Translations under genes and position numbers: made by a program
The notes under the pieces: generated by a model
Database searches by the model: none
Seen by the model: the letters and a program-made list of their open reading frames with translations, nothing else
Told to the model about the DNA's origin: nothing
Shown: positions 5,492 through 45,212 of the stretch, in pieces
How the letters are laid out: each line of letters begins with the position of its first letter
Numbering within the stretch: the first letter of the stretch is position 1
DNA from: Zygnema cylindricum
Lineage: Eukaryota; Streptophyta; Zygnematophyceae; Zygnematales; Zygnemataceae
Reading direction: 5' to 3'
Assembly: GCA_037447655.1 (NCBI GenBank)
Contig: JBBHKE010003336.1
Span: forward strand, 25,766 to 88,819
DNA length: 63,054 nucleotides

Positions 5492-5906
5492 TAATCATGA
5501 ACCGATTTTCGGTTGGAGACCGCTCAATCGACCGCCGATCGGAAAGTGAGAATCTTATCTTTCAATTGCAGCCGTCGGATTATATATCCGACGGCGTGTA
5601 CACGACGATTTTAATGTTTTAATTGGCGTCAAATTATCAGTACTAACAGAGAGATACACTTTATACCGTACTACACCTTATAATTTACCATGTACCGCTA
5701 CTAGTGTTAATGTTTTTTTCGCCGCTTAAACATATTTTTCCCATCCAGACGTGTCGAATTTTCGATGGGAGCCGCCAATCGGAAAATGAGAACCTGTATT
5801 TCAATCGAGACCGTCAGATTAACAATCTGACACAAGCGCACGAAAAAAATGTTTAAAGTGGCGAAAAATAGCACGAACATATAATACCCTACTCGTGTAC
5901 TATACT
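5492..5906. mobile_element. MITE-like palindromic element, family A (one half copy plus one copy)
   Basis: The part from 5691 to about 5906 opens TACCGCTACTAGTGTTAATG and carries CGCCGCTTAAA, CCGCCAATCGGAAA and, near the end, AAGTGGCGAAAAAT, which is the inverse of its start. The same words in the same order occur at 7358-7559, 14748-14968 and 27375-27590. The preceding part (5492-5690) repeats the GGAGACCGC...GATCGGAAAGTGAGAA core. No coding capacity. Confidence 0.6.
5571..5595. other. Perfect hairpin inside a family-A element
   Basis: The arms GCCGTCGGAT and ATCCGACGGC are exact inverse complements with a TATAT centre. A related hairpin, GTCAGATT/AATCTGAC, lies at 5811-5829. Confidence 0.7.
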
Positions 5907-5978: not shown

Positions 5979-6800
5979 AGTTCAAAAGTGGGCGTTTTTA
6001 TGGTAGGCCTTTGGTCGGCGCCTTTATCGTAAGTTGTGTTATGGGCTTTTCATGTGATCTTCTTAGATCGCTACTTTGATCAGCGATCGTCCGATCGTCC
6101 AAATCTGACGGTGTAAATAAATTTTTTGGTCAGAATGTTTTAATTGGGTCCGAATAGGTCCGAATACAATATGGGACTTAAGGTCATATTGTATGTTTTG
6201 CATACAATAGGCATATTGTATGGGCCCTACTTTCACCTAATTTTGAACTATGGTGCATAGCACTGTTGTGGCGCAAGCAAAAAAGTGAGAGAGGATGTAC
6301 GGACATACTAATTAAGCTGAATGTACAGGCTGTGTACCATAGTTCAAAAGTAGGCATTTTTATGGTAGGCCTTTGGTAGGCGCACAAAACTCGCGCAGAG
6401 TAGGCATACTGTATGTGTGTGAATTTGTGCACACTCTTGTACGAACGTACGAATTTGACGTATGATCATAGTACAGCGCACGCCGCTGGACGAAATTTTA
6501 GCGAACCGACACAGCGTAGATGAGTTGTGTTATGGGCTTTTCATGTGATCTTCTTACATCGCTACTTTCATCGGAGACCGTCCGATCGTCCAAAATCTGA
6601 CGGTTTAAATAAAAAATACCTCAAAACTCACAGATTTTATTTTTTATGTCCGAATGTTTTTCAAAATTTAGACATGACGTTTTAATTCTCTATCGATCGA
6701 TGTGCAACTCAACTCTGTTACTATTTTTTTTCATTTTGCGACCAATACAATATGGGTCCTTAAGGTCATATTGTATGTTTTACAATTTACATCATAGTTG
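5979..6800. repeat. Nested direct duplication with hairpins
   Basis: Two diverged copies lie in tandem. Both contain TTTATGGTAGGCCTTTGGT (near 5998 and 6359), GTTGTGTTATGGGCTTTTCA (near 6034 and 6524), CCGTCCGATCGTCC-like text and a GGTCATATTGTATG segment (6182 and 6767). The 6187-6209 part is a perfect hairpin with arms TATTGTATG and CATACAATA. The same hairpin recurs at 7281-7303. It looks like a transposon remnant with internal duplication. Confidence 0.55.
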
Positions 6801-6889
6801 TTCACGGCGTTTAGTGCGAACGATTTAATCGCGACGAATTATATACGTAACAAACGCATTGAACCTTTTGAAAATATCGTAAAAATCGT

Positions 6890-7200
6890 TAATGAATTTT
6901 AGTCCGTACTATTCCGTACATGTAAACAAAAATAAATTTCACATATATCGCAGTTGGTACCATTTTCGTACATTTTCCGTATCTTTTCGTAATAATCCGT
7001 ACATTTTTGGTACAATTCCGTACATTTCCGTAAAATTTCTGTTCAGTTTACCGGACAGAAAGTACTACGAAGTGCAACGTATCTTATCGTCAAATTTTGT
7101 ACATTTACCGTACAAAACCGTACAGCTATCGTAAAATTTCGTACAATTTCCGTGAATTAGCCGTTCAGTTTACCGGACAGAAAGTACATCGCGTTTTTTT
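6890..7200. repeat. CCGTACA-rich degenerate repeat
   Basis: TTCCGTACA or close variants recur every 10-30 bases. The phrase GTTCAGTTTACCGGACAGAA occurs twice, near 7039 and 7162. No gene was seen; probably the interior of a decayed mobile element. Confidence 0.45.
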
Positions 7201-7357: not shown

Positions 7358-7559
7358 TACACCGTGTACTGCTATTAGCCTATTAGCCTATTAGTGTTAC
7401 CGTTAATAATTTTTTTGCCACTTAAAACATCTTTTCTCCGTACACACTTGTCCGATTTTCACATGGAGACCGCCAATCGGAAAGTGATGAACTTGGATTT
7501 CAATCTCAACCGTCAGATCCATAGTCTGACAAGCGTGTACTAAGAGCGATACGCGGTGT
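7358..7559. mobile_element. MITE-like element, family A
   Basis: It starts TACACCGTGTACTGCTATTA and ends with an inverse-related GCGATACGCGGTGT. The inner parts TTGCCACTTAAAACATC, GGAGACCGCCAATCGGAAAG and CCGTCAGATC match the other family-A copies in order. Confidence 0.6.
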
Positions 7560-8554: not shown

Positions 8555-8557
8555 ATG
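8555..8557 (+). other. Candidate start codon of the monooxygenase, out of frame with exon 1
   Basis: The ATG in GACATGGCG has a good eukaryotic context and opens MATVQNLNSLSPLSIFKF before a stop. The leader that joins the FAD motif lies in another frame whose upstream stop is at 8574-8576. Confidence 0.35.
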
Positions 8558-8615
8558 GCGACGGTCCAAAATTTGAACTCTCTCTCTCCTCTCTCAATTT
8601 TCAAATTTTAAAATT

Positions 8616-9207
8616 TTGGACAAAAATCTAAACAAAATTTTAAACACAAAAATAGAAAACCAATCAATTTCTTCTCATTCGAAAAAATTAAAACTTTGTT
8701 CCAAAAATTCGGAAAATGGAAATTTGTTGACATCAAAAAATTGCTTAAAAAATAAAAGAAATGTATCGATTCTAAATATTGTACAGAAGGGGACAAAAAT
8801 AGGAATCAAGGCATCTCAAGTTGGAGGAGGAGAGATAGGGGGAGAGGGAGTGGGAGAGGGAGTGGTGAAGGATGTGGTGATAATTGGAGCGGGAATCGCC
8901 GGTTTGGCAACAGCCGTTGCCTTACATAAGTAATATTCTCCCTCTTTCTCTTTTCCGTCTCTCTTTCTCTCACTTTTACTTTCTCTTTCTCCTCTCTTTC
9001 TTTTTCTCTCTCTCTCTTTCTCTTTCTCTCTCTATCTTTCTCTTTCCCTCTCCATCTTTCTCTCTCTCTTTGTTTCTCTTTCTCTTTCTCTCTCTCTCCC
9101 TTTCTCTCTCTCTTCCTCTCTCTCTCTATCTTTCTCTTTCCCTTTCTATCTTTCTCTCCCTCTTTCTCTCTTGCTTTCTCGCTCCCGTTATCATTCTCTG
9201 TCTCTTT

Positions 9208-9258
<51 letters not shown>

Positions 9259-10633
9259 TTCTCTCTTTCACTCACCCCCTCTCCACCTCTCTCTCTTTCT
9301 CTTTCTCCCTCTTTATCGTTCTCACTCTCTCTTTCACTCTCTCCCTCTCTTTCTCTCTCTCTATCTTTCTCTCTTTCTCTCTTTCCCTCTCTCTCTTTTC
9401 TGTCACTGTTTCTATCCCTCTTCTCTTATTCCCCTCCCTTCTCTAACTCTTCTGTCACTGTTTCTATCTCTTTCCTTCCCTCTCTCATTGTCCTCTCTGT
9501 TTTTCTCTCTCCCCTGTCACTATGTTTCTGTCTCTCTTTCATGCTTTCCTTTCTTCTCTCCGCTCTTCTCCCTTCTCTCCTCTCTCTCTCTCTCCCTCCT
9601 CCCCTCAAGAATCGGCTTCTCTCTCATTCAGTCTGGCAGTCCAAGGGAGGGTGGCTCCGCCCTCTCTTTCCCTCTCCTCTCGCCTGTTACCTTCTCTCTC
9701 TCCCTCTCCCTTTCTCTCATGTTTCTTATAATATCGTCCTCGTAACTCGAATGTCATTCCTCCTCCTCCATTTTCCAACCCTCCCCTTCCCTTTCCCTCA
9801 CCTTCTCCTCTCCCGCTCCCTCTCCTCTCCCTCTCCCTCTCTTTCCCTCTCCCTCTCTAGAATCGGCCTTTCCCCTCTGGTTCTGGAGCGGTCTGAGGGT
9901 CTGAGAGAGGGAAGCTCCGTTCTCTCCCTTTGGGGCAAAACCTTTCAAGTGGCAAAAAAATAACTCCCTCTCCCTCTCTCTCCCTCCCTCTCCCTCCCCT
10001 CTCCCTCTCCAGTATCGGCCTCTTTCCTCTGGTTCTGGGAGGTGTCCGAGGGTCTGAGAGAGGGAAGCTCCGTTCTACCCCTTTGGGGCAAAGCCTTTCA
10101 AGAGGCAAAAAAAATAATCCCCTCTCCCTCTCTCTCCCTCCCGCTCCCTTCTCAGAATCAGCCTCTCTCCTCTGGTTCTGGAGCTGTCCGAGGGTCTGAG
10201 AGAGGGAGGCTCCATTCTCTCCCTTTGGGGCAAAGCCTTTCAAGTGGTATAAAAAATAATTCCCTCTCCCTCTCTCTCCCTCCCTCTCCCTCTCCAGAAT
10301 CGGCCTCTTTCCTCTGGTTCTGGAGGGGTCCGAGGGTCTGAGGGAGGGAAGCTCCTCTCTCTCCCTTCGGGGCAATAGGTGGCAAAAAAAATAACTCCCT
10401 CCCCCTCTCTCTCCCTCTTTCTCCCTCTCCAGAATCGGCCTCTCTCCTCTGGTTCTGGAGCGGTCCGATGGTCTGAGGGAGGGAGGCTCCGCTCTCTCCC
10501 TTTGGGGCAACGCATGGAAAGCTCTCCAAAGTCTCGGAGTCGCGGAAAGTTTAAGGGAGGGATATACACCTCTCACCAGGTGACACACGGCACTCTTTCT
10601 CTGTCTCCTTCTCTCTCTGTTCCTCTCTCTCTG

Positions 10634-10682
<49 letters not shown>

Positions 10683-10926
10683 GTGTCTGTCTATCTCTCT
10701 TAAGTCGGGAGATGTGGGTTAGTTCCATTTTCATTTTATTTCCATTATTTCCATTTGTTCCATTGGGGAATCTTAATGCCAAAATTTTATTCTCATGTTT
10801 ATTTGCTTTGGTTGTTTATTTCTATCTTTATTATTCTTTTTTTCTTTTGTTTCTATATCCACCCTCCCCCCTCCCTCCCCTCCCCCTCCCCCCCTCCCCC
10901 CCCTCTCTTCTCTCCCTCCTCTCTCC

Positions 10927-10997
<71 letters not shown>

Positions 10998-11389
10998 TTT
11001 TAAGTACTTTTTTTTCTGGGTAACAGGATTGAGGTTTGTAACAAAAAAGGACGAATTCTTCGACAATTTACGATTGCCGAATGTTTGGAGGAGTGAGTGC
11101 CAATTTTCTCCTTTGTCCCTCTCCAATTCCTCTCCCTGTCCCTCTCCCTCTCCCTTTCTCCCCTTCTCTCTCTTTCTCTCCTTCTCTCTCTCTCGCCCCC
11201 CCTTCTCCCTTTCATTTTTTATTGCAGAATGTTTGGCCTCCCTTTTCCTCTCCCTCCCTCTCCTTCTCCCTCTTCCTCTCCCCTCCCCCCTCCCCCTCTC
11301 CCTCTCCCTCTCCCTCCCCCCCCTTCCCCCACCTCCCCCCCTTCCCCTCTCTCTCTTTTTCTCCTCTCTCTTCTGTCTCTCACTCTTTG

Positions 11390-11448
<59 letters not shown>

Positions 11449-13966
11449 TTTTTTTCCTTTTTGTCGTTTATTTATTAAAATGCCATTTTTTTTTTTATTT
11501 TATGTCTTGGATTTTCATTTTATTTCTCATTTATTTTTTCACTTATTTTTCCATTTATTTTTTCATTATCACAATAAATTGTAGTCACAATCACTTGTAA
11601 ATAATTCTAAAAACGTAAAAAAACTAAAAAATGTCAATTTTATTTACCACTCGTATGTGTTAGGGTTTTTAAAACCTCATGTTAATTGTAGAAATCCTAT
11701 CTTATTTTCTTACACCTTGTTTTTAATTTCCGTAATTCTTTGCCATTCTCAAATACCCATTTCTTACCTATTTTCTCTTTCTTTCCTTTTCCTTTCTTTC
11801 TTTTATATTTTCTTTTCTTTTCTATCAACTTTTCTTTTTCATTTTTTGTTTTTTTTGTCTCCTCTTTTTTTTTGTTTTTTTTTTTTTTTTTTGTTTTTTT
11901 AAGACCTCATGAAGTCCGGGGAGTGCACCGAGGAACCCTTTTGGCAGCATTAGCCCAGAAATTGCCACCTGGCAGTATTCGATTCGCTACCACTCCAATT
12001 TCGGTGAAGGGAGGAGAGAGAGAGGGAACAACTGTTGTGGAACTGGAAGGAGGAGAGATACTTACCACGAAAGTAAAAAGCCGAGACCTCGTGGTTTCCC
12101 CTGTTTTTTTTTTCGTGTTTTTTTTTGTTGGGATCACATATTTTTTCTTTTTTGTTAGTTTGTTTTTGATTCGGTGTTTGGTTTTTTGGTTTTTTTATTT
12201 TTTAGTGGATCATTTTTTTTGTCTCTTTGTGGTTTTTTTGGGTCTAATTTTGGAGTAGTGTGAGATAGGGAGAGGGAGAGGGAGAGGGAGTGGAAGAGGG
12301 AGAGGGAGAAGGAGAGTGAGAATGAGAATGAGAGTCAAAGGGACCAACAGAGACAGGTAAGTGAGATGGAGGAGAGGGAAGGAGAAGAGGTTGTGAAAAT
12401 CAGCTCTAATATGAATGTTATACAATGTCAAACATCTTGACTCTATTTCATTTTTTAACTCAATTCTCAACTTATTTCTTAACTCATTTTTTACCTTACC
12501 TTTTAACTCATTTCTCCTCTCAACTCGTTGTTATCTCATTTATTAACTCAGCGTTTCCCTCATTTCGGTTAAATCTTTCAGGTTCTTCTCGGTTGCGATG
12601 GGACCCGTTCTATGGTCGCAAATTATCTCGGTCTCAGTTCCGTTAATTATGCGGGATATGCTGCTTTTCGAGGAGTGGGAAAGTTCCCGGAAGGACACGG
12701 AATGGGAGAGACGATTAAAACGGTTTTTGGGGAGGGTGTGAGAGCCGGTTTATATGCCCTTACTGACACCGATGTTTATTGGTTTACATGTTTTAATTCT
12801 CCTCCAGGTAAGTGGAAAAACTCATATTGTATAAGATTGTAAAAGATTATAGAAGATTTTGACGTTCTATGAAGAGTTGAGGAGGTTTATTGAGAGAGTT
12901 GTTATGCCGGTCCTAGTTTGTTTTTATTGGGTGAGACGAGAAAGAATTGTCGAGGTGTTAGAAAAGTAGTGAATTGAACAATGTTACGACAGTTTTCATC
13001 CGTTTTTTAAGAGTGTGTTCTTATGTGGGAGATGAGAGAAAGTTTTGTAATGAATTTGAATTTTAGAAATAAAGAATAATGCATTGGGAGTTGAGCAATT
13101 TTAAGACATCTTTATGTGTTTTGCAAAAATAAAATTATTGATGTGTTGAAAGGACACTTAGAAGATAAGAAAATGAGAAGTCTGTCTTTGGATGGTAGAA
13201 GATGAGAATAGTGTATTAGGAATTAACCCAATTTTCAGTCAATTTTTATACGTTCTAACAGTCCTTTTTATCGTGTTGACGCAAAGAAAACCTTAACCTT
13301 TCCTCAACCTTCTTTTATTTATGGCATTTTTTTCGTTTCTTTTTTTTGACAGGTCTCAGCCGTCAAGGTGATAAAATAAGCTATAAAGAAAGTGCTTTAT
13401 CATCCATAAAAGGATGGGATTGTGGTATCCAAGAAGCCATAAATTGTACAGAAGACGATATGATTTCGAGATCGGACATTACGGATCGATGGACTTTACC
13501 TCTCCCGGGAGTGAGATGGGGAAAAGGAGGAGTTACAGTTTTAGGAGATGCGGCTCATCCTATGACTCCTAATTTAGGTCAAGGAGGATGTACCGCTTTA
13601 GAAGATGCTGTCGTTTTCGCTCGAGAACTCGCTTCTTGTTGTACAATTCAATCTCAAATCGATTCAAAATCGACATTAAATAGCGAAAATGTGGATAGTG
13701 TTTCTGAATCGGAAAGTAAATTGAGTTTAAGGAGAGTTTTGGGAGAACCGAAAGCGATTGCCGAAGCTTTGGCTCGTTTTGACGATGAAAGAATTCATCG
13801 AACGGCACCAATAACCGTTCGATCGTATGTGATTGGAGCCGCATTGCAAATACCCTTTGCCCCTTTTTGCTTTTTTCGAGATAATGTGTTGGTTCCCGTC
13901 GCGGTTAGACCGAAAAGTTTTTTGAATCATGCTGCTTATGATTGTGGCGAGTTGCCGGTTTTATGA
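8616..13966 (+). CDS. FAD-dependent monooxygenase, CTF2/MO1-like, probably plastid-targeted
   Basis: Six exons fit with AG/GT borders and consistent phases: about 8616-8929, 10433-10579, 11027-11092, 11904-12072, 12582-12807 and 13353-13966. Together they give about 511 residues. The protein shows the GAGIAGLATAVAL dinucleotide-binding motif, VLERSDGLREGGSALSLWGN, LLGCDGTRS (DG motif), YWFTCFNSPPG and GDAAHPMTPNLGQGG (GD motif). These are group-A flavoprotein monooxygenase hallmarks, in the order and spacing of plant CTF2A/MO1 proteins. The Ser/Lys/Asn-rich leader before VVIIGAG ends in GIKAS, typical of a chloroplast transit peptide. The start is unsettled: the leader frame has no ATG, while ATG 8555 (MATVQNL) is in another frame and stops near 8611. 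A missed short intron or an indel would reconcile them. The substrate is unknown. Confidence 0.85.
8930..9606 (+). repeat. Long CT-rich tract in monooxygenase intron 1
   Basis: Nearly pure pyrimidine from 8938 to about 9600, with CT, CTTT and CCTCT units and a (CT)n run at about 9211-9243. Open frames across it encode only Leu/Ser/Pro/Phe and are not genes. Confidence 0.85.
9607..10400 (+). repeat. Tandem array of decayed exon-2 copies inside monooxygenase intron 1
   Basis: Copies start after an AG at about 9610, 9861, 10013, 10156 and 10298, and the true exon starts at 10433. The spacings of the last five are 152, 143, 142 and 135 bases. Each copy has a pyrimidine tract, an AG, and the first 80-90 bases of exon 2, reading LSPLVLE...LREG and LSLWG. 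The copies diverge from the real exon after TTTGGGGCAA, into CAAGTGGCAAAAAAATAA or a variant. Copies 9861 and 10156 keep the exon frame until that TAA. Copy 10013 has a 1-base insertion and copy 9610 is the most decayed. Only the 10433 copy continues to KALQSLGVAE and a good donor (GTGACA). Confidence 0.85.
10580..11026 (+). repeat. Monooxygenase intron 2 with CT microsatellites
   Basis: It contains (CT)n runs at about 10632-10680 and 10930-10993, separated by ordinary AT-rich sequence. The intron ends GGGTAACAG before the RIEVCNKKGR exon. Confidence 0.8.
11093..11903 (+). repeat. Monooxygenase intron 3: CT tracts and a possible exon-3 fragment
   Basis: The pyrimidine-rich part spans 11105-11460 with a (CT)n run at 11393-11443, followed by T-rich DNA up to the splice acceptor. 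ATTGCAGAATGTTTGG at 11221-11236 differs at one base from the end of exon 3 at 11073-11088, so a second exon fragment may be duplicated here. Confidence 0.6.
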
Positions 13967-14747: not shown

Positions 14748-14968
14748 TACACCGTGTATCGCTACTAGTGTTAATGTTTTTTTAGTTTCTTAAAACATAT
14801 TTTCTCCGCACATACATGTCGGATTGTAGATCTGACGGTTGCGATTGAAAGGTAAAATTCTCAGCTTTCAATTGGCGGTCTCAATTTGAAAATCGAAGAA
14901 GTGTGCACGGAGAAAAGATGCTTTAAGTGGCGAAAAAATTACTAACACTAATAGCGATACACGGTGTA
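14748..14968. mobile_element. MITE-like element, family A, with clear terminal inverted repeats
   Basis: It begins TACACCGTGTATCGCTACTA and ends with the inverse complement (TAGCGATACACGGTGTA); the two ends pair over more than 20 bases with few mismatches. Inner words (CTTAAAACATATTTTCTCCG, TTTAAGTGGCGAAAAAATT) are also inverse related, so the whole 221-bp unit can fold back. TA at both outer ends may be the target-site duplication. No coding capacity. Confidence 0.75.
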
Positions 14969-15889: not shown

Positions 15890-18800
15890 ATGGAGGAGCG
15901 TTGCATTACTATGCATCAGCCATGGGCGTCTCTTCTTGTGTACGGAATAAAGCGAATAGAAGGGCGGGCATGGCCGACAGATCATCGAGGTTTCTCATTC
16001 TCAAACTGTTTTTCCTCTTTCGACTATATGTTTTTGGATTTTGTGCTTTTCAAATTTGTGCTTTTCAACTTTATGTTTCAACTTTTCAATTCTGTGTTTC
16101 AAATTTGTGATTTTCAATTTCGTGTTTTTCAGCTATGTCTTTCATGTCTGTGTTTTTTATCTTTGTGTTCTTTGACTTCGTTTTTTAACATTGTCTTTCA
16201 ACTTTGTCTTTTTTAACTTCGTGTTTTTCAACTTTGTTTCAAGTTTCTGTTTTTTATCTTTGTGTTCTTTAACATTGTCCTTCAACTTTGTTTTTCAACT
16301 TTGTGTGTTTCGACTGTGATTCAACTTCGTGTTTTCAATTTTTTATGCTCAAAATTTTATGTTTTTCAGTTTTCTGGTTTTGAACCCTGTTTTTTTGACT
16401 TTTTTTTTTTTTTTCCCTCCCTTCTCCATTTCGTGCTTTTGTTCAGCATTTCCGTCTGTCTTTGCGTTTCTGTTTTAAAATTCAGTTGATTGTACGGTTT
16501 GTGTTTAATTGATGTGTTTCTATTTCTGTTGCTTGTTTTAGTTTTCTCTCTTTTTTGCGCTTCTATGTTCCGTTTTCCATTGATTTCTGAATATATCGGG
16601 AACGTGACAATGTGTTATTGGAGGGATTTTGTCTTTCCTGCAAATTTTTTATTCTGTTTATTGTAGTGTTTTTGTCGTTTTTTGCTGCAGATCATGACTA
16701 TCTTTGTTTTTTCTTTGGTGAACCTGCTGAAATAATCTTCTTTGCAAACAGTCTTTCAGTCTCTTAGGAGATGTTAGCTATCTCAATACAGCTTTTAAAA
16801 AAAATCGAATTATTCCATTTTCCCAATTCCTGCCTTTTCCCAATTCCTCTGTAGGGAAAATTCAATGAACTCAATTTATTCTTTCCTTCCAAAACAGGTA
16901 GATTATGGATCCACGCAGCCTCAAAGATTCCGGAAAAATCGACAATCGAAGCGATGGAGAATTTCTATCGAGATATTTACGAATTGGAAGGAATCGAAAA
17001 CGTTTGTTTTCCGAGTTCTTATCCAACGTCTGTATTGCTTGGTAAGCTCCATCATTTCTTTAAAGCCCTGAAAGTATTTAGATCCTAAAAAAATCTAACA
17101 AAATTTGCAATCAGATCTTGTTAGTTCACTAAGTTTTCCTTCTTTGGTTTTTGAGGAAATGAAGCTTGTTGGGTACAACAGGTATACACCACTCACCGTA
17201 ATTAGTGTGGACTCATTTCGAGTTGTCTACATGGATTTTAGTCCACATTGTTGGTTTTGTTTTATTTTGTTAATTTTCTTTTTAAACATTTTGGTTTTAA
17301 CTAGTTTTGTAGCGGTCATATTATGGAACAGCTAAAAGTACATATACTCCTAGTTAACTAATTTGAATCTCGATGCTTACTTGTGATTAGTGAGGACTAA
17401 TTTTACTATGAACTGATTTTTAGTTGTTTTTGTTTGATTTTGATTGTTTTTGTTTTCTTATTCTGGATAAACATGCTTTTTTGTTGCTGTAAATGAAATA
17501 AACTGATTTTTTTGTTTTGATTTCTTATTACGTTTTAAGATAAACAGGCTGTGTGGATGTAATCGAGTGTTCTCGGATGGAGAATATCGCAACATGGGAT
17601 GCCCTTCCTACCTCTGTAGGCTCTTAAACCTTAAGTTTTTCCGTTAACAAGTTGACATTTGTTTGTTTTTGACAGGAATAATGTTTACGGCCCAAAAGCG
17701 ATAACTGTATCTGTGGGTTTTGCTTTTATCGGCTTTATAACATGTTGGCATTTGTTTGTTTTTGACAGGAATAGTGATTTATGCTCCAAAAATAATAACC
17801 GTATCTGTGGGTTTTGCTCTTTATCAGCTTCATAACAAGTCGATCACAGGGATAGTGATTTATGCTCTAAAAGCGATAGAAAAACGGTTTTACTTATTTC
17901 CGGCTGAAATACAATGCAGGTTTGAAGAATTTGGAAATGATGAATATGGAGTCACCTTTTTTGAGCTTGGGAATTGCTAATAAGATAAGACGAGAGACGA
18001 TAAGATAAAATCTTATTTGATGGTATCTTATTTGCAGTATCGAATTGAGGCGCTCACGAAATATTGTTGGCTATGCGAGAATCCACGTGTGAGTTCCTTT
18101 CTTCATTGGTTTTTTTATTGTTTTACGTGTGGTTTCTTTTATGGTTTCTTTTATAGTTTCCTTTGTGGTTTCTTCTATGGTTTCTTTTATGGTTTCCTCA
18201 TTGTTTCTTTAATGGTTTTCTTACGTTTCCTCATTGTTTTTTTTCATGGTTCTTTATATGGTTTCTTTTGATTGCTTCCTCATAGTTTCTTTTGTGGTTT
18301 GTTCATTTGCACTTTTATTCCTTTATGGTTCCTTCATTTTTTTTTCTTTCATTTTTATTTTATTGTTCTTCTTTTTTCTTCAGTGTTTCTTTAATTGTTT
18401 CTTCATTGTTTCTTTTCTTTTATTCTTTCCTCGTCATGTATCATTTTCCCTCTCTCCTCTTCTCCCTCCCTCTCCTGTCTTTTTTTATTGGAAAAGTAGA
18501 TCTTTGGATAACATTTGATAAATATTTTAGGGGGTTTTTAAAGGGAACAGCGACTAATAATGCCTCGAGAAATGAGAGGTCAAAAAGACATTTATTCGTT
18601 GTCTAAAGAGGTAAAGTTTTATTTTACCCAATTTTCCTTGCACTTTCGTCGTCCCTCTGTTTATCTTCATCGCCATTCCTGAATGCCCATTATTTTTTAT
18701 TGTTAATCAAATTATACCTATTTTTATTATAGTCACCGCATTCGTTATTTGAACATTTATAAACTCGAATATTTGACATTCGTATTCGAGAAGCTGAACA

Positions 18801-23689: not shown

Positions 23690-24731
23690 GGCTGGTTATC
23701 GCACTAATGTCTTTAGTCTTCATTTATAATATTATTATAAATATAAATATAATAAATTATATGTTATAGTTATTTTATATAATCATATATTATGTTAATA
23801 TATAGAATATGGTATTGTTCTTACATTCTGTTCAATTACAGAATATATTATGTTCAGATATTATTGTTCTAAAATAATTTTAATATATATAAACATTTTA
23901 TATTCATATTATTGTTCACGTATTTATGTTGAATATATAGAATGGTATTATATTTAGATATTATTGTTCATATATTAAGCTGATATATAAATTTTAATAT
24001 TATGTTCATATATGATGTTAAATTATAAAATGTCTTATATTTAGGTATTATTGTTCATACATTAAGCTAATACATAAACTGTAATATCATGTTCATATAT
24101 TATTTTTCATATATGATGTTAAATTATGAAATGTATTATTAAGAGGTCTCAGGTTCAAGAACTGAAAGAATCGATTTTCGCACTCGATTTATAGTCCCAC
24201 ATTGAACCCTAAATTTTAAGAATCTCAATAATACGTCAATAGTTCTTGTGCAACGAGAAAAAATGTATTTCTGGAATTGAATTCATACCGTTCGTCTAAT
24301 TATTGCAAAGTAACGAATCTTTATCTTTACGAATTTTTAATGCTTTTCATCTATAACTTTGTAATCCTATAATTGTAAAATATAATTCTAAAAAACAGTA
24401 AATAACTTTGCAACGAGTCTTCGCTACTATAACTGGAATATTAGTATTGTGAGAACATTGTAGGTCTATATGTAGCCCTTCCTATGGGAGAACATTAATA
24501 ATTTTTGCAAAGGTAAGAAACAATATTGCAAAGCAATCTAACATTCATACATATAGAAACACAAATAATTTAAGCGATCCATTACATATCCTATTTATTT
24601 GATCCAATCATTAAGATTCAACAATCTTTAGAACCTGAGGTTTAGTCCATCCATGGTTCTTCACGTGGATGTCTCAATGCTGTTTTTTTTACTTTTAGAG
24701 TTGTTAGCTCCCTATTTGTAAAAGCTGAATT
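23690..24731. other. AT-rich spacer downstream of the minus-strand Hsp70
   Basis: Very AT-rich with repeated ATTATTGTTC and TTCATATAT words from 23720 to 24130, a degenerate 60-70-bp periodicity. No gene was recognised. Confidence 0.45.
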
Positions 24732-26803
24732 CTAAACTGGAAGTGTACTTTCTTGAACCACCCTATCTGTGTCATTGTACTCAATTTCACCTGCCTCAAA
24801 GTCTATTGGAATCGTTGATGCCTCTTCTCCGGATCCGAAGTTTAGTGGACGAGCCTTAACTTTAATGCTCGACTGTCCAAACCACATTGTTGTCTCTATC
24901 GTTCTCCCTGTTCCTAACTTGGTGTCGGGGATTTCCAGTGTAAAACTGCCTTCCTTGTAAACACCTGGTTCGTCAACATATTCTGGAGACTTCTTTGTTG
25001 AGCTGTATACAGAGATGTACATCTTAATTAGATCTGGCTCCACAGGATAGTAATCTTTTTTCACTTCCGAGCTCACATTAACAACATTACCAATATTGAC
25101 GAAAGTGTCAAAGACATCATTACATAAATGCTCTCCCTCGCTCGTGATGTATTTTTTACTTTTTGGGTGATGGCCAGACACAAAAGATACTGCCATGTCA
25201 GTGCCGTATGTTATCCGTGATACACGCGACAACACACAATCCGGATGAAAAACTTGTAAAACAGCCCCATGGCATATTGCAGAACCCGGGTTAGGAGGCA
25301 TCACAATATGTGTGACATTTGTCGCAAAGCGTACTTTTATACAGTGCATGAGATAAGGGGACTCGGAAAATCCCCCAACCATAAGGATGGCTTTACATGC
25401 TCCAGCGGATGATAGTTGTTGGTCGATAATGTCTAACACTTTCTCGATAGTTGGGTTGAAAATAGTTTCTAGAATGTCACGAGTAAAAACAATTTCATCA
25501 AATTCTTCCACACATTTTTCCAGCCCTTGTTTGTCGTGAGTGTGTGATGCTCGCCACGCGTTGGCAAGCTTACTTGGAAGTTCAAAAACCTTTTGATTGA
25601 ATTTTTTTCTGCAAGATACAATAACCAATTAAATAAAAACGATCATTCTATATTGCATATAAAATACTTGTCAATTACAAAGGCAAATTTTTCTTGTCCT
25701 GACACATGTACTATTATACACTTGGTTATTTGAAGTCATTCGTTCATGCATGTAGGGACATGATACAGGAAATACAAAACTAAAGAATCTAGTATAATTT
25801 CACAAAATTTAGGTTTGTTGTCTAAATATAAAAGACTCAAAAATACAACTTAAATTCACCTGAAGCATCGTTTGATTTCATCCCATTGCTTCAATAATCT
25901 GGGCGTGACCTCCGGATTTGTCTTTCAAACAACATATTTTCCCTTCCAGAAAAAGAAATGTCGCGTCGTCAAGATAAGTAGATCCAGACAAGCTTCCATC
26001 ACTCCTTGTAACCTCCTTTACTTCAGCCCCATTTCCCGCCTTTTCATGTACCACAATATCCACTGTCCCTCCTCCAGCATCGACGACCATAATTCTATCG
26101 CCAATTTTGAGGTCAATGACTTCTTTCTGATGGCAATAGGTAGATGCGGCTTCAGGCTCCAAAATAACGTGGAGAGGATTTTGAACATTTTCTTTACCAA
26201 AAACATGAGGCCGATTTGGAGTTAATCCTGCCGCCATCGCAATTTTCCTCATTTTTTGTTTCGCTTGATCTGTCCAAGTCGCCGGAACTGTCAAAGCCCA
26301 TTCTATGTCCCACATTTCGACATTATTTTTTTAAGTTGCCCGTAAGTCTTCAAGCACAAACGCAGACATCCGCCGAAGATAATCCTCGATCGCCCTCTCG
26401 ACGGAGATTCCTTTTGGAAGAGGTGTGACGTCACAGCCATCCTCAGAAAGATGTAGCTTAAAACGTGTAACCAAACAACCATATATTTTCTCTTTTTCTT
26501 TTTTTTTCTCTATCGGCAAGATGTTCGAAAAAACATGTGACGCTTGCCGAGCATGGATGGCTCCATTCTAGCGTTACAGGAACCGATAACGGCTGGCCAG
26601 CCCCATTCTTTGCACTGCCATTGGCCGCAAGAATCTTGCACGTACCAAAGACTTGTAAACGTTTTGCAATAAGGATAGGCGGCTTCTTCTTGGAGATGCC
26701 ATCCATGAACGACATAAATATCGTCGGAATGCGACTTTCGAGCGTAAGCGGCACCAGAAAAAGTGGTGCCAAAGTCGATAGCGACAATAAACCTAGAAGA
26801 CAT
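24732..26803 (-). pseudogene. HSPA12-type Hsp70, copy A (minus strand), disrupted
   Basis: Exon 1 runs from ATG 26803 down to about 25860, exon 2 from 25608 down to 24732. The start reads FIVAIDFGTTFSGAAYA and the second phosphate motif VVDAGGGTVD and ILMVGGFSESPYL are present. Exon 1 carries three lesions. A one-base deletion near 26545 turns the KRSHAF region into another frame. A TAA replaces a Tyr codon near 26335 (LRAT then stop, then NNVEMWD). A deletion near 25910 changes CLKDYMK... to CLKDKSGGH and a stop. Exon 2 is fully open. It is the only copy on the minus strand and lies head-out from GIL1-a. Its 5' flank (26815-27290) still resembles those of the plus-strand copies. Confidence 0.85.
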
Positions 26804-26814
26804 GGCCGCTAAAG

Positions 26815-27330
26815 GAAAGTAGGAGCACTGTTACTGTTAAAATCTGTAAAAAAATTATAGAAACGAAAGAAAATGCTAACGCTAATTAAACTTCCAGATG
26901 TCTGCAGTACAATTTGAAGAGTATTTGGAGAGCATTTTGGAGTATGAATTTTTAGGTATGAGACTCTCTTTGTTTGACTTTTCGTTATTCACCCTTCGCC
27001 ATTCGTTATTATCAATAAGGATTGCTAAGTATTCATGCAAAACCATCGGGTAAGATTACCACTTATATTCGTCCGGTATTCCAAGGGCTAGATTATGCTA
27101 AGATCGTCGGTGTTGTGACGGTGCATCAACGGCTGCGATGAAGTGTCGCCGAGCGCCGTACCACCGACCGTAGTAGTTTCGTTTGGTTTCTTGAAAGATA
27201 AGATCTGTGGACCAGAACGTTCCACGTCAGGTATTAATTTTTCATGCAGGGATGCAAAGGTAAATTTACAAAAGCTGACAGCAGACAATAATTATTTTTT
27301 AATTTGCTTAAAGTTTTGAGAACTAAATAT
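26815..27330 (-). promoter_or_regulatory. 5' flank of Hsp70 copy A, homologous to other Hsp70 flanks
   Basis: On the minus strand it shares ACGTGGAACGTTCTGGTCCAC, CGATCTTAGCATAATCTA and CAGACATCTGGAAG-like phrases with the DNA ahead of copies 1-3. No confident TATA box was assigned. Confidence 0.4.
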
Positions 27331-27374: not shown

Positions 27375-27590
27375 TTGTGTTGATGTTTTTTAGCCACTTA
27401 AAATATATTTTCTCCGTGCACACATGTGGCGTTGCTAATCGGGCGGTTGCGATTGAAAGGTAACATTCTCATTCCGATTGGCGATCTTCGATCCAAAAAT
27501 TGGACAAGGGTGCACGAAGAAAAGAACTTTTAAGTGGGTGAAATAATTAAATAAATATCAACACTAATAGCGGTTCACAATGTAGTTCTC
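27375..27590. mobile_element. MITE-like element, family A, diverged ends
   Basis: Contains TAGCCACTTAAAATATATTT, TCTCCGTGCACACATGTGGC, GGTTGCGATTGAAAGGTAAC and CACTAATAGCGGTTCACAATG in the family order. It lies between Hsp70-A and GIL1-a. Confidence 0.6.
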
Positions 27591-30480: not shown

Positions 30481-31276
30481 ATAAAATTCCTAAATTAGGC
30501 TATAGAAGGCTTCTTTCCAACATCGGAAAGGTGACGGAAAACCTTGGAAGTAAAATACACGTGGATAGATGAGATTTTCTCTAATTTGTGACAAATCTTT
30601 TCTCTCATGCTGGAAATCGTCGCATCTACCGACCGACGTAAAATACATACCATGCATACGTACGGAGTGATACATACACAACAAAAGGTGAGACCAGGAA
30701 TGGATTGTGGTTTGTGGCCCTGTGGAAATGAATTAATCGACATAACATTCTGGTCTTTGCTGGTCATGTTTTCTACATCTTTACAGTAGTTTGTATGGAT
30801 GTATGAAAGCGTGGACAATTATTTACCCAAAGTAGTTTACGCAATATCTACATGCAAACAGGAGGACCTACAGTGGGGTATTATCGTCCACTATTTGACT
30901 TTGATTATTAAAAACAATATTGCATACTTGCAAAAGAAGGGCCTGACGTGGAACGTTTTCATCGTTTTTTGAAATATTGTAAAGCAAGATCTTTCAAGAA
31001 AGCAAACGCAACTAAAGCAAATAGGGGTGTAAATTACCTACGTTGATCGCTAACACGACACGAGGATCTTAGCATAATTTATCCCTTGGAATTTCAAACT
31101 AATCTACGTCGTTGATCTACCATAGAGTTAAGAAGAGCAATTCTCGTTGATAATGATGAACGTTACAAGGTGGATAACGAACACGCACAATTCCCCGAGG
31201 CTAAAATTCAAACTTCAAAACCCTTTAAATACTCTTCTTCAGACATCTAGGAAATTCAATTCGCTTTTGTTTTTGT

Positions 31277-31284
31277 TTCTTGAA
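31277..31284 (+). promoter_or_regulatory. TTCNNGAA word ahead of Hsp70-1
   Basis: TTCTTGAA lies 52 bases before the ATG. Copy 2 has TTCTTGAA and copy 3 TTCGTGAA at the matching place. It is the core of a heat-shock element, but a full three-unit element is missing. Confidence 0.25.
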
Positions 31285-31335
31285 ACTGTTTACAAATTTC
31301 AAGAGCAATAGTGCTCCTGCTTTCCTTTGGAGGCC

Positions 31336-33451
31336 ATGTCTGCCAAGTTTGTTGTCGCCCTCGACTTCGGCACCACATTTTCTGGTGCCGCTTATGCTCG
31401 AAAGTCGCATTCGGACGACATTTCTGTCCTCCATGGGTGGCCTCTCCAACAAGAAGCCACCTATCCTTATTGCAAAACGATAACAAGTCTTTGGTACGTG
31501 CAAGATTCTCGCGGCCAATGGCAGTGCAAAGAATGGGGCTGGCCCGCCGTTATAGGTTACTGTAATGCTAGAATGGAACTGTCCACGCTCGCCAAACGTT
31601 CGCATGCTTTTTCTAACATCTGGCCGGTACAAAACAAATCAGAAAAGGAGAAACCATACGGTTGTTTGGTTACACGTTTTAAGCTACATCTTTCTGAGGA
31701 TGGTTGTGACGTCACACCTCTTCCAAACGGAATCTCAGTCGAGAGGGCAATCGAGGATTATCTTCGGGGAATGTCCACATTTGTGCTTGCAGAATTACGG
31801 AACACATTCGGAAATCATGTCGAAATGTGGGATATAGAATGGGCTTTGACAGTACCTGCAATTTGGACCGATCAAGCAAAACAAAAAATGCGGAAAATCG
31901 CGAAGGCAGCTGGATTAACCCCAAATCGGCCTTATTCGTTCAGTAAGAAAACTGTTCAGAATCATTTCCATGTTATTTTGGAGCCTGAAGCAGCATCTGC
32001 TTATTGCCATCAGAAAGAAGTCGTTGACCTCAGAATTGGAGATAGAATTATGGTCGTCGATGCGGGAGGAGGGACAGTGGACATTGTGGTACATGAAAAG
32101 GCGGGAAATGGAGCTGAAGTAAAGGAAGTTACTCGAAGTGATGGAAGTTTGTGTGGATCAACTTATCTTGATGAGGCGGCGTTCCTTTTCTTGGAAGAGA
32201 AAATAAGTTGTTTAAAAGACTACATGAAGACACATCCAGAGATCACACCCAAATTGATGAAGCAATGGGATGAAATCAAACGTTGCTTCAGGTGAATAAA
32301 GTTGTATTTTTGAGTCACTGATGCTTAAACAATAAACCTGAATTGCGTGAAATAAGACTTTATTCTCTGCTTTTGTAATTTATACATCATACACCTAATA
32401 TGATATGGTATGGTATGGTATCGCATATGGTATACATTCATTTTGCATGGACTAATGGGCTTAATATAACGGTGTATACAATAGTAAAATGTCGAGTCAA
32501 AAAAAATGTCCCTTTTAATTGACGAACTTTTCGTATTCAAGATAGAAAGTAAAGTTCTTATATGATTGGCTACCGCTAACAGCTATCTTTATTGAATCTT
32601 GCAGAAATAATTTCAAACAAAAGGTTTTTGAACTTCCACGTAAGCTTGCCAATGCGTGGCAAGAATCGCACACTCAAGACAAACGGGGGCCGAAAATATG
32701 TGCGGAAGAATTTGACGAAATTGTTTTTACTCGTGACATTCTGGAAACTATTTTCAACCCCACTATCGAGAAAGTGTTAAACCTTATTGACCAACAACTA
32801 TCTTCCGCCGGAGCATGTAAAGCCATCCTTATGGTTGGGGGATTTTCCGAGTCCCCTTATCTCATGCACCGCATAAAAGAACGCTTTGCGACAAATGTCA
32901 CACATATTGTGATGCCTCCTAGCCCGGGTTCTGCAATATGCCATGGGGCGGTTTTACAAGTTCTTCATCCAGATTGTGTGTTGTCACGTGTATCACGGAA
33001 AACATACGGCACTAATACTACGACACCTTTTGTGTCTGGCCGTCACCCAGAAAGTAAAAAGTTTATCACGAGTGAAGGAGAGGAGAGGTGCCACGGTGTC
33101 TTTTGCACTTTCGTGAGGATTGGTGACGTTATAAATGTGAGCTCAGAAGTGAAAGAATTTTTCAGTCCTGTGGAACCAGATCAAATTCAGATGCCATTTT
33201 CAATATACAGCTCAACAAAAAAGTCCCCGGAATTTGTTGACGAGCCAGGTGTTCACAAGGAAGGAAGTTTTACGCTGGAAACTCTGGACACCACGTTAGG
33301 AAGGGAGAGAAGTGTAGAAGCAACCATGTGGTTTGGACGGTCAAGTATTGAATTCAAGGCTCGTCCTGTAAACTTTGGATCCGGAGAAGAGGCATCAACT
33401 ATTCCAATAAAGTTTGAGGCAGGTGAACTTGAGTACCATGACAAGAAATAG
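31336..33451 (+). CDS. HSPA12-type Hsp70-family ATPase, copy 1 (intact)
   Basis: Two exons, 31336-32291 and 32605-33451, with a phase-2 junction (GCTTCAG/GTGAAT ... TTGCAG/AAATAA), give 600 residues. Hsp70 ATPase motifs are in place: DFGTTFSG at residues 10-17, VVDAGGGTVD near 239-248 and ILMVGGFSESPYL near 393. LEPEAASAYC and GSAICHGAVL are typical of the HSPA12 branch rather than of classical Hsp70. There is no classical substrate-binding domain or EEVD tail, as in that branch. The ATG context GGCCATGTC matches GGCCATGGC of copies 2 and 3. A polyadenylation signal, AATAAA, lies at 33460. The client or pathway is unknown; this is the only copy without a visible lesion. Confidence 0.85.
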
Positions 33452-33940
33452 GGTGGTTAAATAAAGTACACTTTCAGTTTCAAATGTTGCTTCTACAAAT
33501 AGGGTGCTAATAGCCCTAAAAGTGATGTCAAAACAGTGCTCAGATACTCACATGAAGAACCGTAGATAGAAGAACCATTTGTTTTTGAAAATTGTTGAAC
33601 TTCAATGTTTGGATCTAAGAGAGTGATGGATTCTTCAAAATTTCTTCGCATATGTAATGCATGTTCGATTAGTTTTCAATCTTGTTTTTTGGCCTTTGCA
33701 GAAAGATTATATATGCTCTTACAAGAAGAGCTACGTATGATTTAACTCTGATCTCAAAGTCTTAAAACACTATATTCTAGTTATAGATGCGAAGATTTGT
33801 TTCGGAGTTATATAAGCAACGCTTCCAAGTAAGAGTCGTTAATCCAAAAAAAAAAAAAACAGTTTCAATTGCAATTTATCTCGCTAGTCAAAATGTTCAC
33901 TGGTAAGATTTATGAAATCTAGGGGTCAATGTGGGAGAAT
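33452..33940. other. 3' flank of Hsp70-1
   Basis: It shares CACATGAAGAACCGTAGAT and AACCTT/ATTGGAT-type phrases with the flanks of copies 2 and 3. No gene. Confidence 0.45.
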
Positions 33941-39548: not shown

Positions 39549-40034
39549 AGGAGTTACATGAATGCAAAAAGAGGACCGAAAGTGGTGCATTATTCTCCAC
39601 TATTTCAAAGTACTCAAATTAGTCTAGGCGGTATTTACATGCATGCAAAAATAGGAGCTAACGTGGTACGTTCTGGTCCACATTTTAAAAACCTTACCTT
39701 TCAAAAAAGCAAACGCAACTAAAGCAAGTAGGGATGCAATCTACCTACGGTCCCCATTCCCGTCATCAAACGGGCGATCTTAGCATAATATACCTCTTGG
39801 AATTTCACGAATCTACGCGGTTGATCTTAGCATACAGTATTCACAATAACTTGCAATTCTTACTGATAATGACGAACGCCACAGGTGGATGACGAACACG
39901 TTCATTTTCCCAAAGTTAAAATGCTCTCCAAAGAGACTTCAGACATCTGCAAGTTACAGTCACTTTCCCTTTTGTTTCTTGAAATCGTTTACAGATTCTA
40001 ATCGCAATAATCTTCCTCCTGCCCTTTGGAGGCC

Positions 40035-42109
40035 ATGGCTGCCAGGTTTGTTGTCGCTCTCGACTTTGGCACCACATTTTCCGGTGTCGCTTACGCTCGA
40101 AAGTCGCATTCCGACGACATTTATGTCCTTCATGGATGGCCTCTCCAACAAGAAGCCGCCTATCCATATTGCAAAACGATTACAAGTCTCTGGTACGTGC
40201 AAGATTCTCGCGGCCAATGGCAGTGCAAAGAATGGGGCTGGCCCGCCGTTATCGGTTACTGTAACGCTAGAATGGAATCGACCAATCTCACGAAGCGTTC
40301 ACATGTTTTTTCAAACATCTTGCCGATAGAAAAAAATACAGAAAAAGAGAAAACATATGATTGTTTGGTTACACGTTTTAAGCTACATCTCTCTGAGGAT
40401 GGTTGTGACATCACACCTCTTCCGAACGGAATCTCCGTCGAGAGGGCGATCGAGGATTATCTTCGGGGAATGTCCACGTTTGTGCTTGAAGACTTACGGA
40501 AAACTTACGGAAATCATGTCAAAATGTGGGACATAGAATGGGCCCTGACAGTACCTGCAATTTGTTCCGATCAAGCGAAACAAAAAATGAGGAAAATTGC
40601 AAAGGCGGCAGGATTAACTCCAAATCGGCCTTATTCGTTTGGTAAAAAAACCGTTCAGAATCCTCTCCACATTATTTTGGAGCCTGAAGCTGCATCTGCC
40701 TACTGCCATGAGAAAGAAGTCGTTGACCTCAAAGTTGGAGACAGAATTATGGTCGTCGATGCTGGAGGTGGGACAGTGGATATTGTGGTACATGAAAAGG
40801 CGGGAAATGGAGCAGAAGTAAAGGAAGTTACTCGAAGTGATGGAAGTTTGTGTGGATCGACTTATCTTGACGACGCGGCCTTTATTTTTTTGGAAGATAA
40901 AATAAGTTGTTTGAAAGAGTACATGAAGAAAAACCCGGAGATAACACCCAAATTAATGAAGCAATGGGATGACATCAAACGATGCTACAGATGAATAAAG
41001 TTGTGTTTTCTCTGAAATTTGAAACCTGAATTGGGTGAAATTAAAAATGGTACTCTGGTTTTGCATTTTCCATGTAACAAACCAAGATGTATGAATCAAT
41101 GGGCAAAAAAAAAAATCAAGTCGACAATAGTATACGTGTCAAGTAAAAAAAAAGTGTTTTTGTAACTGACAGATTTTTCGTGTGCAAGATAGAAGTAACG
41201 TTAATATGTGATTGTTTACCACTAACCAGCTAATTTATTAAATCTTGCAGAAATAATTTCAATCCGAAGGTTTTTGAACTTCCACGGAAGCTTGCCAACG
41301 CGTGGCGAGAATCGCACACTCACGACAAACGAGGGTCGAAAATATGCGCGGAAGAATTTGATGAAATTGTTTTTATTCGTGACATTCTAGAAACTATTTT
41401 CAACCCAACTATCGCGAAAGTGTTAGACCTTATCGACCAACAACTATCTTCCGCCGGAGCATGTAAAGCCATCCTTATGGTTGGGGGATTTTCCGAGTCC
41501 CCTTATCTCATGCACCGCATAAAAGAACGATTTGCGACAAATGTCACACATATTGTGATGCCTCCTAGCCCGGGTTCTGCAATATGCCATGGGGCGGTTT
41601 TACAAGTTCTTCATCCAGATTGTGTGTTGTCACGTGTGTCACGGAAAACATATGGCATCGCTATGTCGGTACCTTTTGTGTCTGGCCATCACCCAGAAAG
41701 CAAAAAAATCATCACGAGCGAGGGAGAGCATTATTGCCGTAATGTCTTTCGCACTTTTGTGAGTATTGGTGATGTGATTAACGTGAGCTCGGAAGTGAAA
41801 AAAATATTCTGTCCTGTAGAGCCAGATGACATTCAGATGTACTTCTTGGTTTACAGCACAACGAAGAAATCCCCTGAATTTGTTGACGAGCCAGGTGTTT
41901 ACAATGAAGGTAGTTTTGAGCTGGAAATACCCGACATCATGTTAGGAAGGGAGAGAAGGGTAGAGACAACCATGTGGTTTGGACGGTCAAGTATTGAAGT
42001 GAAGGCTCGTCCACTAAACTTTGGATCCGGAGAAGAGGCATCAATGGTTCCAATAAACTTTGAGGCAGGTGAAATTGAGTACCATGGCATAGGCAGGGTG
42101 GTGGAATAA
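40035..42109 (+). CDS. HSPA12-type Hsp70-family gene, copy 2, with a lost splice donor
   Basis: Exon 1 (40035-40990) and exon 2 (41251-42109) are both fully open and would join like copy 1 into about 604 residues. Motifs are intact: DFGTTFSG, VVDAGGGTVD, ILMVGGFSESPYL. However, the donor reads ACAG/ATGAAT instead of CAG/GTGAAT, so the invariant GT is gone. Without splicing, translation ends at TGA 40992-40994, giving a 319-residue N-terminal ATPase half. The acceptor TTGCAG before exon 2 is kept. The stop codon lies within an AATAAA (GGAATAAAT). It could be a young pseudogene, a half-protein gene, or use a cryptic donor. The start context is GGCCATGGC. Confidence 0.7.
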
Positions 42110-42639
42110 ATTTCACTTTCAGTTTCAGATCCAGTTTTGTACATATAGGGAGTTACAGTTTTGTACATATAGGGAGTTACAGCTCGAAAGTGAAAACAAC
42201 TCTGTCAAGATTGTCTTGAGAATCTTAGATAGAAGAAACCTTTGTTTCTAAAATTTGTTGAACCTTTAAAAGGTTGGATGGAAGAAATGAGGACGATTGA
42301 TGGATTGTTCAAAATATTTTTTGTTTGTATATGTGTGTATGTTAAATTGATTTGCAATTTTATTTCTGGTCTATGCAGAATAGTTTTAACATGCTTGGAT
42401 AGGAAGGACCACATATTAACTTACGTCGGTTTTCAAAGTCTCAAAGCACAAAATGTATACTTATATATGCGAAGATTCGTTGCAAAGTTACAGAAACAAA
42501 GCTTCCAAGTAAAGAGTCTTTCCTTCGAGATAAAGTAAGTGAACAGTTCGAATTGCAATTTATCTCCCTAGACAAACCGTACAATCTTCAGATTCACAGA
42601 ATCTAGGATTCAATGTGGGAGTATAACATGAGTGAGAAA
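42110..42639. other. 3' flank of Hsp70-2
   Basis: A 22-bp unit containing CAGTTTTGTACATATAGGGAG is repeated at 42130 and 42151. The rest parallels 33480-33940. No gene. Confidence 0.45.
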
Positions 42640-44299: not shown

Positions 44300-45212
44300 G
44301 TCCACTCATATTCGTTTGAGTTTGCTAATATATAAACACAAACAAAAATCGATCGGTAGACACTGCGGAATTTCTCTGAATTTTTATGGTTTTTTTTGCA
44401 TTTTCACTCCATAAAATTCAAAACATTGAACGTAAGTTTGAGAAATAGTTTTGGAAACAACCGACTATATAATTTAATGGAGATATATCCTCTAGCCATT
44501 ATTAAGATGAGAAATACTTAATCCTGAAAAATAAAGTATACACAATGCATAATATTCATACACACGGAGCGATCCGTACATAAAAAAAGGCGAGAACAGA
44601 ATTGGGTTGAGGTTAATTTAGGCATTATTTACTTGCAAGCTAAAAGAAGATCTAAAGTGGGGCATCATTGTACAAATATTTCAACATACTCGTAATAGTG
44701 TAGACAATATTACATGCATACAAAAACAGGACCTGACGTGACGAAAGCAAACGCGAACTAAAGCAAGCAACGTACGAATAAAATCTGCCTACGGCTATTG
44801 GTACAATTCTCAACGGTAGCCGTTGATCGCCGTAATCACACCGACAAGCTTGCCTACGGTCAGTGGTACGGTACTCGCCGACAATTCGTCGCAGCCGTCA
44901 ATCGCAAAACCCACACACGCCGACGAGCTTAGCATAATCTAGCTTTTGGAGTTTCAAATGAATCTACGTCGTCGATCTTACCGTAGGGGTTCTGCATGAT
45001 TATTTTGCAGTTCGCTTTAGAAATGAAGAACGCCACAGGTGAACCACGAAAATCTACAGTTCCCCAAAGAATTCAAACTTCAAAATGCTTCAAATAGCTC
45101 TTTAAATGCTACATCATACATCTTGCAAATTATGTAAGATTTTTTTTTTTGGTTTCGTGAAATTGTTCATAGATTCTAACTGTAAGTGTGCTCCTCCTTT
45201 CCATTAAAGGCC
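44300..45212. other. Deletion junction and 5' flank of Hsp70-3
   Basis: Up to about 44530 the sequence follows the DNA after the 34.2-kb element. From about 44560 it follows the DNA just ahead of Hsp70-2 (ACGGACACAAAAAAAAGGCG in that unit). The GIL1 gene expected between them is absent. Confidence 0.5.

Follow-up and report, generated by a model that had tools for sequence, protein, structure and literature searches.

Tandem copies of an intron–exon boundary within the first intron of a Zygnema cylindricum monooxygenase gene

Intron 1 of a Zygnema cylindricum monooxygenase gene (positions 8930-10432 of the window, by which we mean the whole 63,054-nucleotide stretch of DNA that was analysed) contains four clear copies and one degenerate copy of its own 3′ splice site together with the first ~77 nt of exon 2. 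We consider it probable, at roughly 0.82, that this array is the product of neutral tandem duplication across the intron–exon boundary. An earlier sequence-only reading had reported copies of the exon 2 start, each with its own pyrimidine tract and AG, and pyrimidine counts (19-20 of 20), alignments and Tandem Repeats Finder all bear this out. That reading had offered two explanations, and the analysis of the array and the frequency of local duplication in this genome support the second, a repeat expansion that captured an exon edge; for the first, a decoy or poison-exon array that tunes splicing, no positive evidence emerged from coding constraint, broken conserved residues, the predicted hairpin or the duplication background.

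The gene lies on the plus strand and encodes an FAD monooxygenase of the plant and green-algal type (PF01494, E 8.3e-22). Its six exons join in phase into a single open protein of 449 residues, counted from 8802, in which the PF01494 match begins at residue 24. Among the matches listed, the closest homologue is a transcriptome sequence, P0001 (52% identical), with which the window sequence also groups in a quick tree (support 0.996); Klebsormidium nitens (47%) is among the next named homologues in the same list, and another, at 48%, has an entry name that we take to be Spirogloea. When the protein was searched against its own genome (352,776,454 bases in 2689 contigs), nine matches were obtained, of which eight fall at the window locus, where all six exons are recovered, and one lies elsewhere at 48% identity. 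The 5′ end of the model is less simple: within 8555-8929 the exon 1 frame has no ATG downstream of its upstream stop, and a MATVQNLNSLSPLSIFKF start at 8555 is in a different frame from exon 1, so that an additional splice or another gene model is required to reach the true start. The introns also differ in composition, introns 1-3 (8930-11903) being 79-82% pyrimidine on the coding strand and introns 4 and 5 being 53% and 47%. The features of the gene and the array, with the copies labelled c0 to c4 and identities given relative to the functional exon, are as follows.

8801..8929, plus strand: exon 1, 3′ part; donor GTAATA at 8930; open frame VVKDVVIIGAGIAGLATAVALHK in phase with exon 2
8930..9607, plus strand: 5′ part of intron 1, pyrimidine-rich, with 0 AG dinucleotides in 678 nt
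9610..9672 (end approximate), plus strand: c0, degenerate, AAG acceptor; from alignment and shuffle test
9861..9963, plus strand: c1, copy of the exon 2 start, TAG acceptor at 9858-9860; 70/77 aligned positions identical; in frame to TAA at 9961-9963
9949..10012, plus strand: spacer between c1 and c2, 64 nt, reading as a candidate mini-intron (GTGGCA ... TAAC ... pyrimidine tract ... CAG)
10013..10117, plus strand: c2, frameshifted, without GT where the other copies carry one; 67/77 aligned positions identical, one gap
10156..10252, plus strand: c3, copy of the exon 2 start; 71/77 aligned positions identical; in frame to TAA at 10250-10252
10244..10297, plus strand: spacer between c3 and c4, 54 nt, reading as a candidate mini-intron (GTGGTA ... 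TAAT ... tract ... CAG)
10298..10394, plus strand: c4, copy of the exon 2 start; 71/77 aligned positions identical; in frame to TAA at 10392-10394
10379..10432, plus strand: spacer between c4 and the functional exon, 54 nt, reading as a candidate mini-intron; candidate branch point of the functional acceptor, A at 10394
10433..10579, plus strand: functional exon 2, 147 nt; donor GTGACA at 10580; open frame in phase; compared with 118 homologues (of the best 120 of 1324)
11027-11092, plus strand: exon 3, from the joined open frame
11904-12072, plus strand: exon 4, from the joined open frame
12582-12807, plus strand: exon 5, from the joined open frame
13353-13966, plus strand: exon 6, from the joined open frame, with stop TGA

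Tandem Repeats Finder scored the array at 910, with a period of 142 nt and 4.8 copies. Exon-2-like sequence follows each of the AGs ending at 9609, 9860, 10012, 10155, 10297 and 10432, and the 20 nt before each of these six hold 19-20 pyrimidines, in the copies as in the functional acceptor; similarity to exon 2, which is 147 nt long, then breaks off at about 77 nt. Although five copies had been counted, only four are clear (67-71 of 77 positions identical to the functional exon); the fifth, at 9610, is degenerate, with 49 of 62 aligned positions identical and 24 gap positions, and its best ungapped piece (21/23) outscores all 1000 shuffles of 8930-9800. Likewise, the reported spacing of about 140 bp fits the last four AG-to-AG intervals (152, 143, 142 and 135 nt) but not the first, which is 251 nt. 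The number of copies said to keep the exon frame up to a TAA, two, was too low: three clear ones, beginning at 9861, 10156 and 10298 (c1, c3 and c4), are open for 34, 32 and 32 residues, respectively, and c0 is open as well, until a TAA at 9743-9745, whereas c2 is thrown out of frame by one inserted base. Compared with each other, the clear copies differ at 7-9 of 77 positions, c2 having the one-base gap in addition. A history in which a dimer unit was duplicated, with a 277-nt period, was considered and set aside, as the c1-c3 (70/77) and c2-c4 (69/77) pairs are barely closer than other pairs (68-69/77).

A TAAC or TAAT motif, which we presume to be a candidate branch point, stands 38 nt upstream of the AGs of c3, c4 and the functional exon and 49 nt upstream of that of c2, so that from c2 onwards the natural reading of the unit begins with the branch point, followed by tract, AG and exon start. 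The 60 nt preceding the AGs of c0 and c1 contained no such motif, and since the A-rich branch-point segment of the unit is missing upstream of c1, the history of the array is not fully reconstructed. The direct repeats contain the 3′ end of the intron together with the 5′ start of the exon, and the unit occurs in tandem at the window locus; when the c2 unit was used as a query against the 352.8-Mb genome, in a search that scored the best candidates and skipped common words, all five matches (5/5) fell at this locus.

Under neutral tandem duplication, the segment duplicated locally would have extended from the branch-point region of intron 1, across the pyrimidine tract and AG, over the first ~80 nt of exon 2. 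Further rounds, for which the pyrimidine-rich tracts presumably gave the opportunity through slippage or unequal exchange, would have produced the four clear copies, with c0 perhaps an older or separate copy. We infer the order of duplication, its mechanism and the splicing behaviour of the array. Exon recognition favours a full exon with a downstream donor (exon definition), and the last, complete unit would have remained the functional exon because it alone has both; the remaining copies would then be intronic and decay at the neutral rate. Nevertheless, the acceptors of c1-c4 equal the functional one in pyrimidine content, which makes their use by the spliceosome plausible; occasional splicing into a copy, also plausible, would yield a truncated transcript.

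We evaluated how commonly local duplication arises in this genome, using 18 stretches of 10 kb (L029, which overlaps L025/L026, and L033, the window, were excluded). Local direct duplications formed 29 clusters covering 11,319 of 180,000 nt (6.3%) in 13 of the 18 stretches, a sample in which 17 of 18 are contig starts, some on short contigs, and which may not be representative of gene introns. Exons matching PF01494 were found at 12 places in the genome, including the window's own, and a pair scan of all 12 loci revealed five repeat pairs in four of them (L026, L034, L035 twice and L036). In two of the 11 matches outside the window (L035 and L036), the following intron contains a second copy, about 92% identical, of the 3′ edge of the exon with its donor.

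L036, 1634-1819 and 1981-2166: repeated exon 3′ edge with donor, exon ends placed by eye
L035, 1587-1624 and 1705-1742: repeated exon 3′ edge with donor, exon ends placed by eye

At the background rate, 1.3-1.5 duplicated edges would be expected for 20-24 edges, compared with the 2 observed, an approximation in which every match is counted as an exon with two edges. Because duplicated edges thus occur near the background rate, the duplication of exon edges in this genome needs no special cause.

Two further loci were assessed as possible parallels and rejected. In the stretch L023 (G000:C2300:1-10000), tandem units of ~50-60 bp with TTTGCAG/GAAAAATGTGT lie at ~6749-7150 on the minus strand, where seven unit copies (<=2 mismatches) stand upstream of an exon-like open frame that starts with identical letters; the tract before the AG is purine-rich. 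The predicted protein at L023 had no homologue at E up to 10 and no Pfam match above the cut-off, and the open frame extends upstream beyond the supposed acceptor; for these reasons an exon edge there is unproven, and the locus was not retained as a second acceptor array. Within the window, 17645-17888 carries ~93-bp units with acceptor-like ends, TTTTTGACAG, in what is presumably a gene for an ASCH-domain protein; exons placed by eye put the repeats at 17645-17840 inside an intron, and they were not kept as a second exon-edge case.

Other repeats are also present in the window. A ~215-bp element at 14749-14966 has near-identical inverted ends, ACACCGTGTATCGCTA[CT]TAGTGTTA, and resembles what we take to be a small DNA transposon (MITE); similar pieces are dispersed near 5687-5868, 7388-7531 and 27377-27584. 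Four related blocks of ~2.7 kb (24399-27173, 31054-33865, 39760-42548 and 44854-47720) are 78-81% identical, one of them inverted, and encode fragments that by eye appear to be of an Hsp70-like ATPase.

We then considered whether the copies bear signs of selection on their coding potential. Simulations of neutral change, confined to c1, c3 and c4 given the gaps in c0 and the frameshift in c2, gave no sign of coding constraint: the codon differences of these three copies comprise 13 nonsynonymous and 5 synonymous changes, a nonsynonymous fraction of 0.72 against a neutral mean of 0.69 (5000 simulations). In none of the three does a stop interrupt the exon-like part, which also holds for about 63% of the neutral simulations. 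Conserved residues were scored in the 118 homologues (the best 120 of 1324 hits, less two shorter than 331 residues). The glycines at positions 19 (117/118) and 3 (110/118) are both retained by the functional copy, while c1 and c4 have serine at 19 and c3 has serine at 3; as only the functional copy keeps both, the functional exon appears to preserve the original state, from which the copies seem to have decayed. A21, alanine in 94 of these 118 homologues, is replaced by V in c1, by I in c3 and by S in c4, the serine occurring in 18 of the 118, and E10 (117/118) is retained by all three. Each frame-intact copy therefore breaks a conserved residue, and the copies look like decaying remnants of local duplication and not like a tuned device.

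The results from RNA structure bear on an alternative scenario, one we regard as improbable, in which the array is a functional decoy or poison device: the competing 3′ splice sites would engage the exon 1 donor or U2AF and lower productive splicing, and transcripts would be fed, perhaps conditionally, into nonsense-mediated decay. Five extra AGs, each preceded by 19-20 pyrimidines in 20 nt, are what such a device would present, as are the phased TAAC/TAAT motifs of c2, c3, c4 and the functional exon, the acceptor-like AG of all five copies, and the in-frame stop in c1, c3 and c4 and after c0. However, in c1 and c4 the TAA belongs to the next unit's candidate branch point, and in c3 it precedes that motif by seven bases, so this stop needs no selection. 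Units c2-c4 fold more stably than shuffles (z -2.27, -4.24 and -3.66; functional unit -1.47), with a predicted hairpin that spans the splice site in c1-c4 and in the functional unit. The functional hairpin, at -20.0 kcal/mol, is reached by 3.75% of synonymous randomisations, in a single post hoc test. Compared with neutral mutants, in a test covering c1, c3 and c4 (c2 was excluded because of its indel, and c0 was not among the folded units), at least equal stability was reached by 26% for c1, 65% for c3 and 1.4% for c4; c1 and c3 thus resemble neutral mutants and only c4 stands out, and we did not adopt the hairpin as a function. Predicted local accessibility neither favours the functional acceptor nor separates it from those of the copies (AG unpaired 0.075 for the functional site, 0.094-0.188 for c1-c4 and 0.453 for c0; window 120), which also speaks against a decoy. 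The AG-free stretch 8930..9607 was rejected as a sign of selection: 0.84 AGs would be expected in its 678 nt, and with 42% of 5000 shuffles likewise AG-free, it is not significant. With the c4 hairpin excepted, nothing within the array exceeds neutral expectation; the lack of coding constraint, the frameshift in c2 and the high background of local duplication weigh further against a decoy. Taken together, none of the tests of coding, polarity, structure and AG depletion consistently supports selection on the array, and low-level use is compatible with them.

One may postulate instead that the array is a chain of nascent exon–intron units, each duplication having brought a full 3′ splice module, with the spacers acting as introns of 54-64 nt and the copies, above all the 81-nt start of c4, includable as small exons. 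The spacers at 9949-10012, 10244-10297 and 10379-10432 each carry GT, TAAC/TAAT, tract and CAG, the readings after c1, c3 and c4 each opening with the GT of CAAGTGG or TAGGTGG and closing with the CAG that comes next, so that motifs for donor, branch site, tract and acceptor occur in three of the four spacers that follow c1-c4. The most concrete candidate for use of a copy is c4: with the GT at 10379 as donor, its initial 81 nt (10298-10378) could be spliced as an in-frame cassette of 27 residues. This donor, TAG/GTGGCA, shares all but two of its nine positions with the real exon 2 donor, CAG/GTGACA, and by a crude score it rates 5/9, the same as the real exon 1 donor. A duplication in potato similarly inherited branch site, tract and AG (PMC4974935). 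Against these points, the spacer donors are weak on the crude score, the four remaining real donors of the gene (6, 6, 7 and 9) outscore that of c4, c2 has no GT at the corresponding place, the 88-nt cassettes from c1 and c3 would shift the frame, and the c4 cassette would probably leave the protein with a conserved FAD-domain segment twice, once in degraded form. We therefore view this scenario, too, as unlikely. A mis-assembly of a single unit into several is very improbable: low-complexity tracts do lie between the units, but 7-9 differences in 77 positions plus the c2 gap are much for sequencing error, and searches of the genome found no second allele or paralogue of the unit elsewhere.

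The array can also be set beside known systems. Known poison and decoy exons typically have demonstrated use or conservation; the array resembles them in that its intronic segments are exon-like, carry acceptor signals and would introduce a stop if included, but its constraint tests are negative and it is known from the genomic sequence. Mutually exclusive exon arrays, which arise by exon duplication, likewise have tandem exon starts with an acceptor on each, yet the copies here are partial and have neither the second half of the exon nor its donor. Complete, phase-matched alternative exons under coding constraint were not found in the array, where similarity ends at ~77 of 147 nt and substitutions fit neutrality.

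A closer parallel is the potato RdRp gene, in which a tandem duplication spanning the intron 1/exon 2 boundary brought along branch site, tract and AG and gave rise to a new intron whose splicing is supported by RNA-seq reads (PMC4974935). The Zygnema locus is the same kind of duplication with more copies: it too spans the boundary between intron 1 and exon 2 and carries branch site, tract, AG and exon 2 start. The differences are that potato has one extra copy and an RNA-seq-supported intron, whereas the Zygnema array has four clear copies and one degenerate copy, seen in DNA, of which one is frameshifted and has no GT in its spacer. A literature search, judged by titles and the starts of abstracts, turned up nothing closer.

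The array thus displays, in several copies, the duplication step from which one published route of intron gain starts, and it does so in a host genome where local duplications are common and some cross exon edges. Such a natural series makes it possible to ask under what conditions a duplicated splice module is passed over, serves as a decoy or becomes a new intron. Should the ordinary reading alone be correct, the array is a caution against labelling repeated acceptor-like sites as regulatory; if the units are indeed nascent introns and exons, repeated stepwise birth of introns by tandem duplication would be directly testable at this locus.
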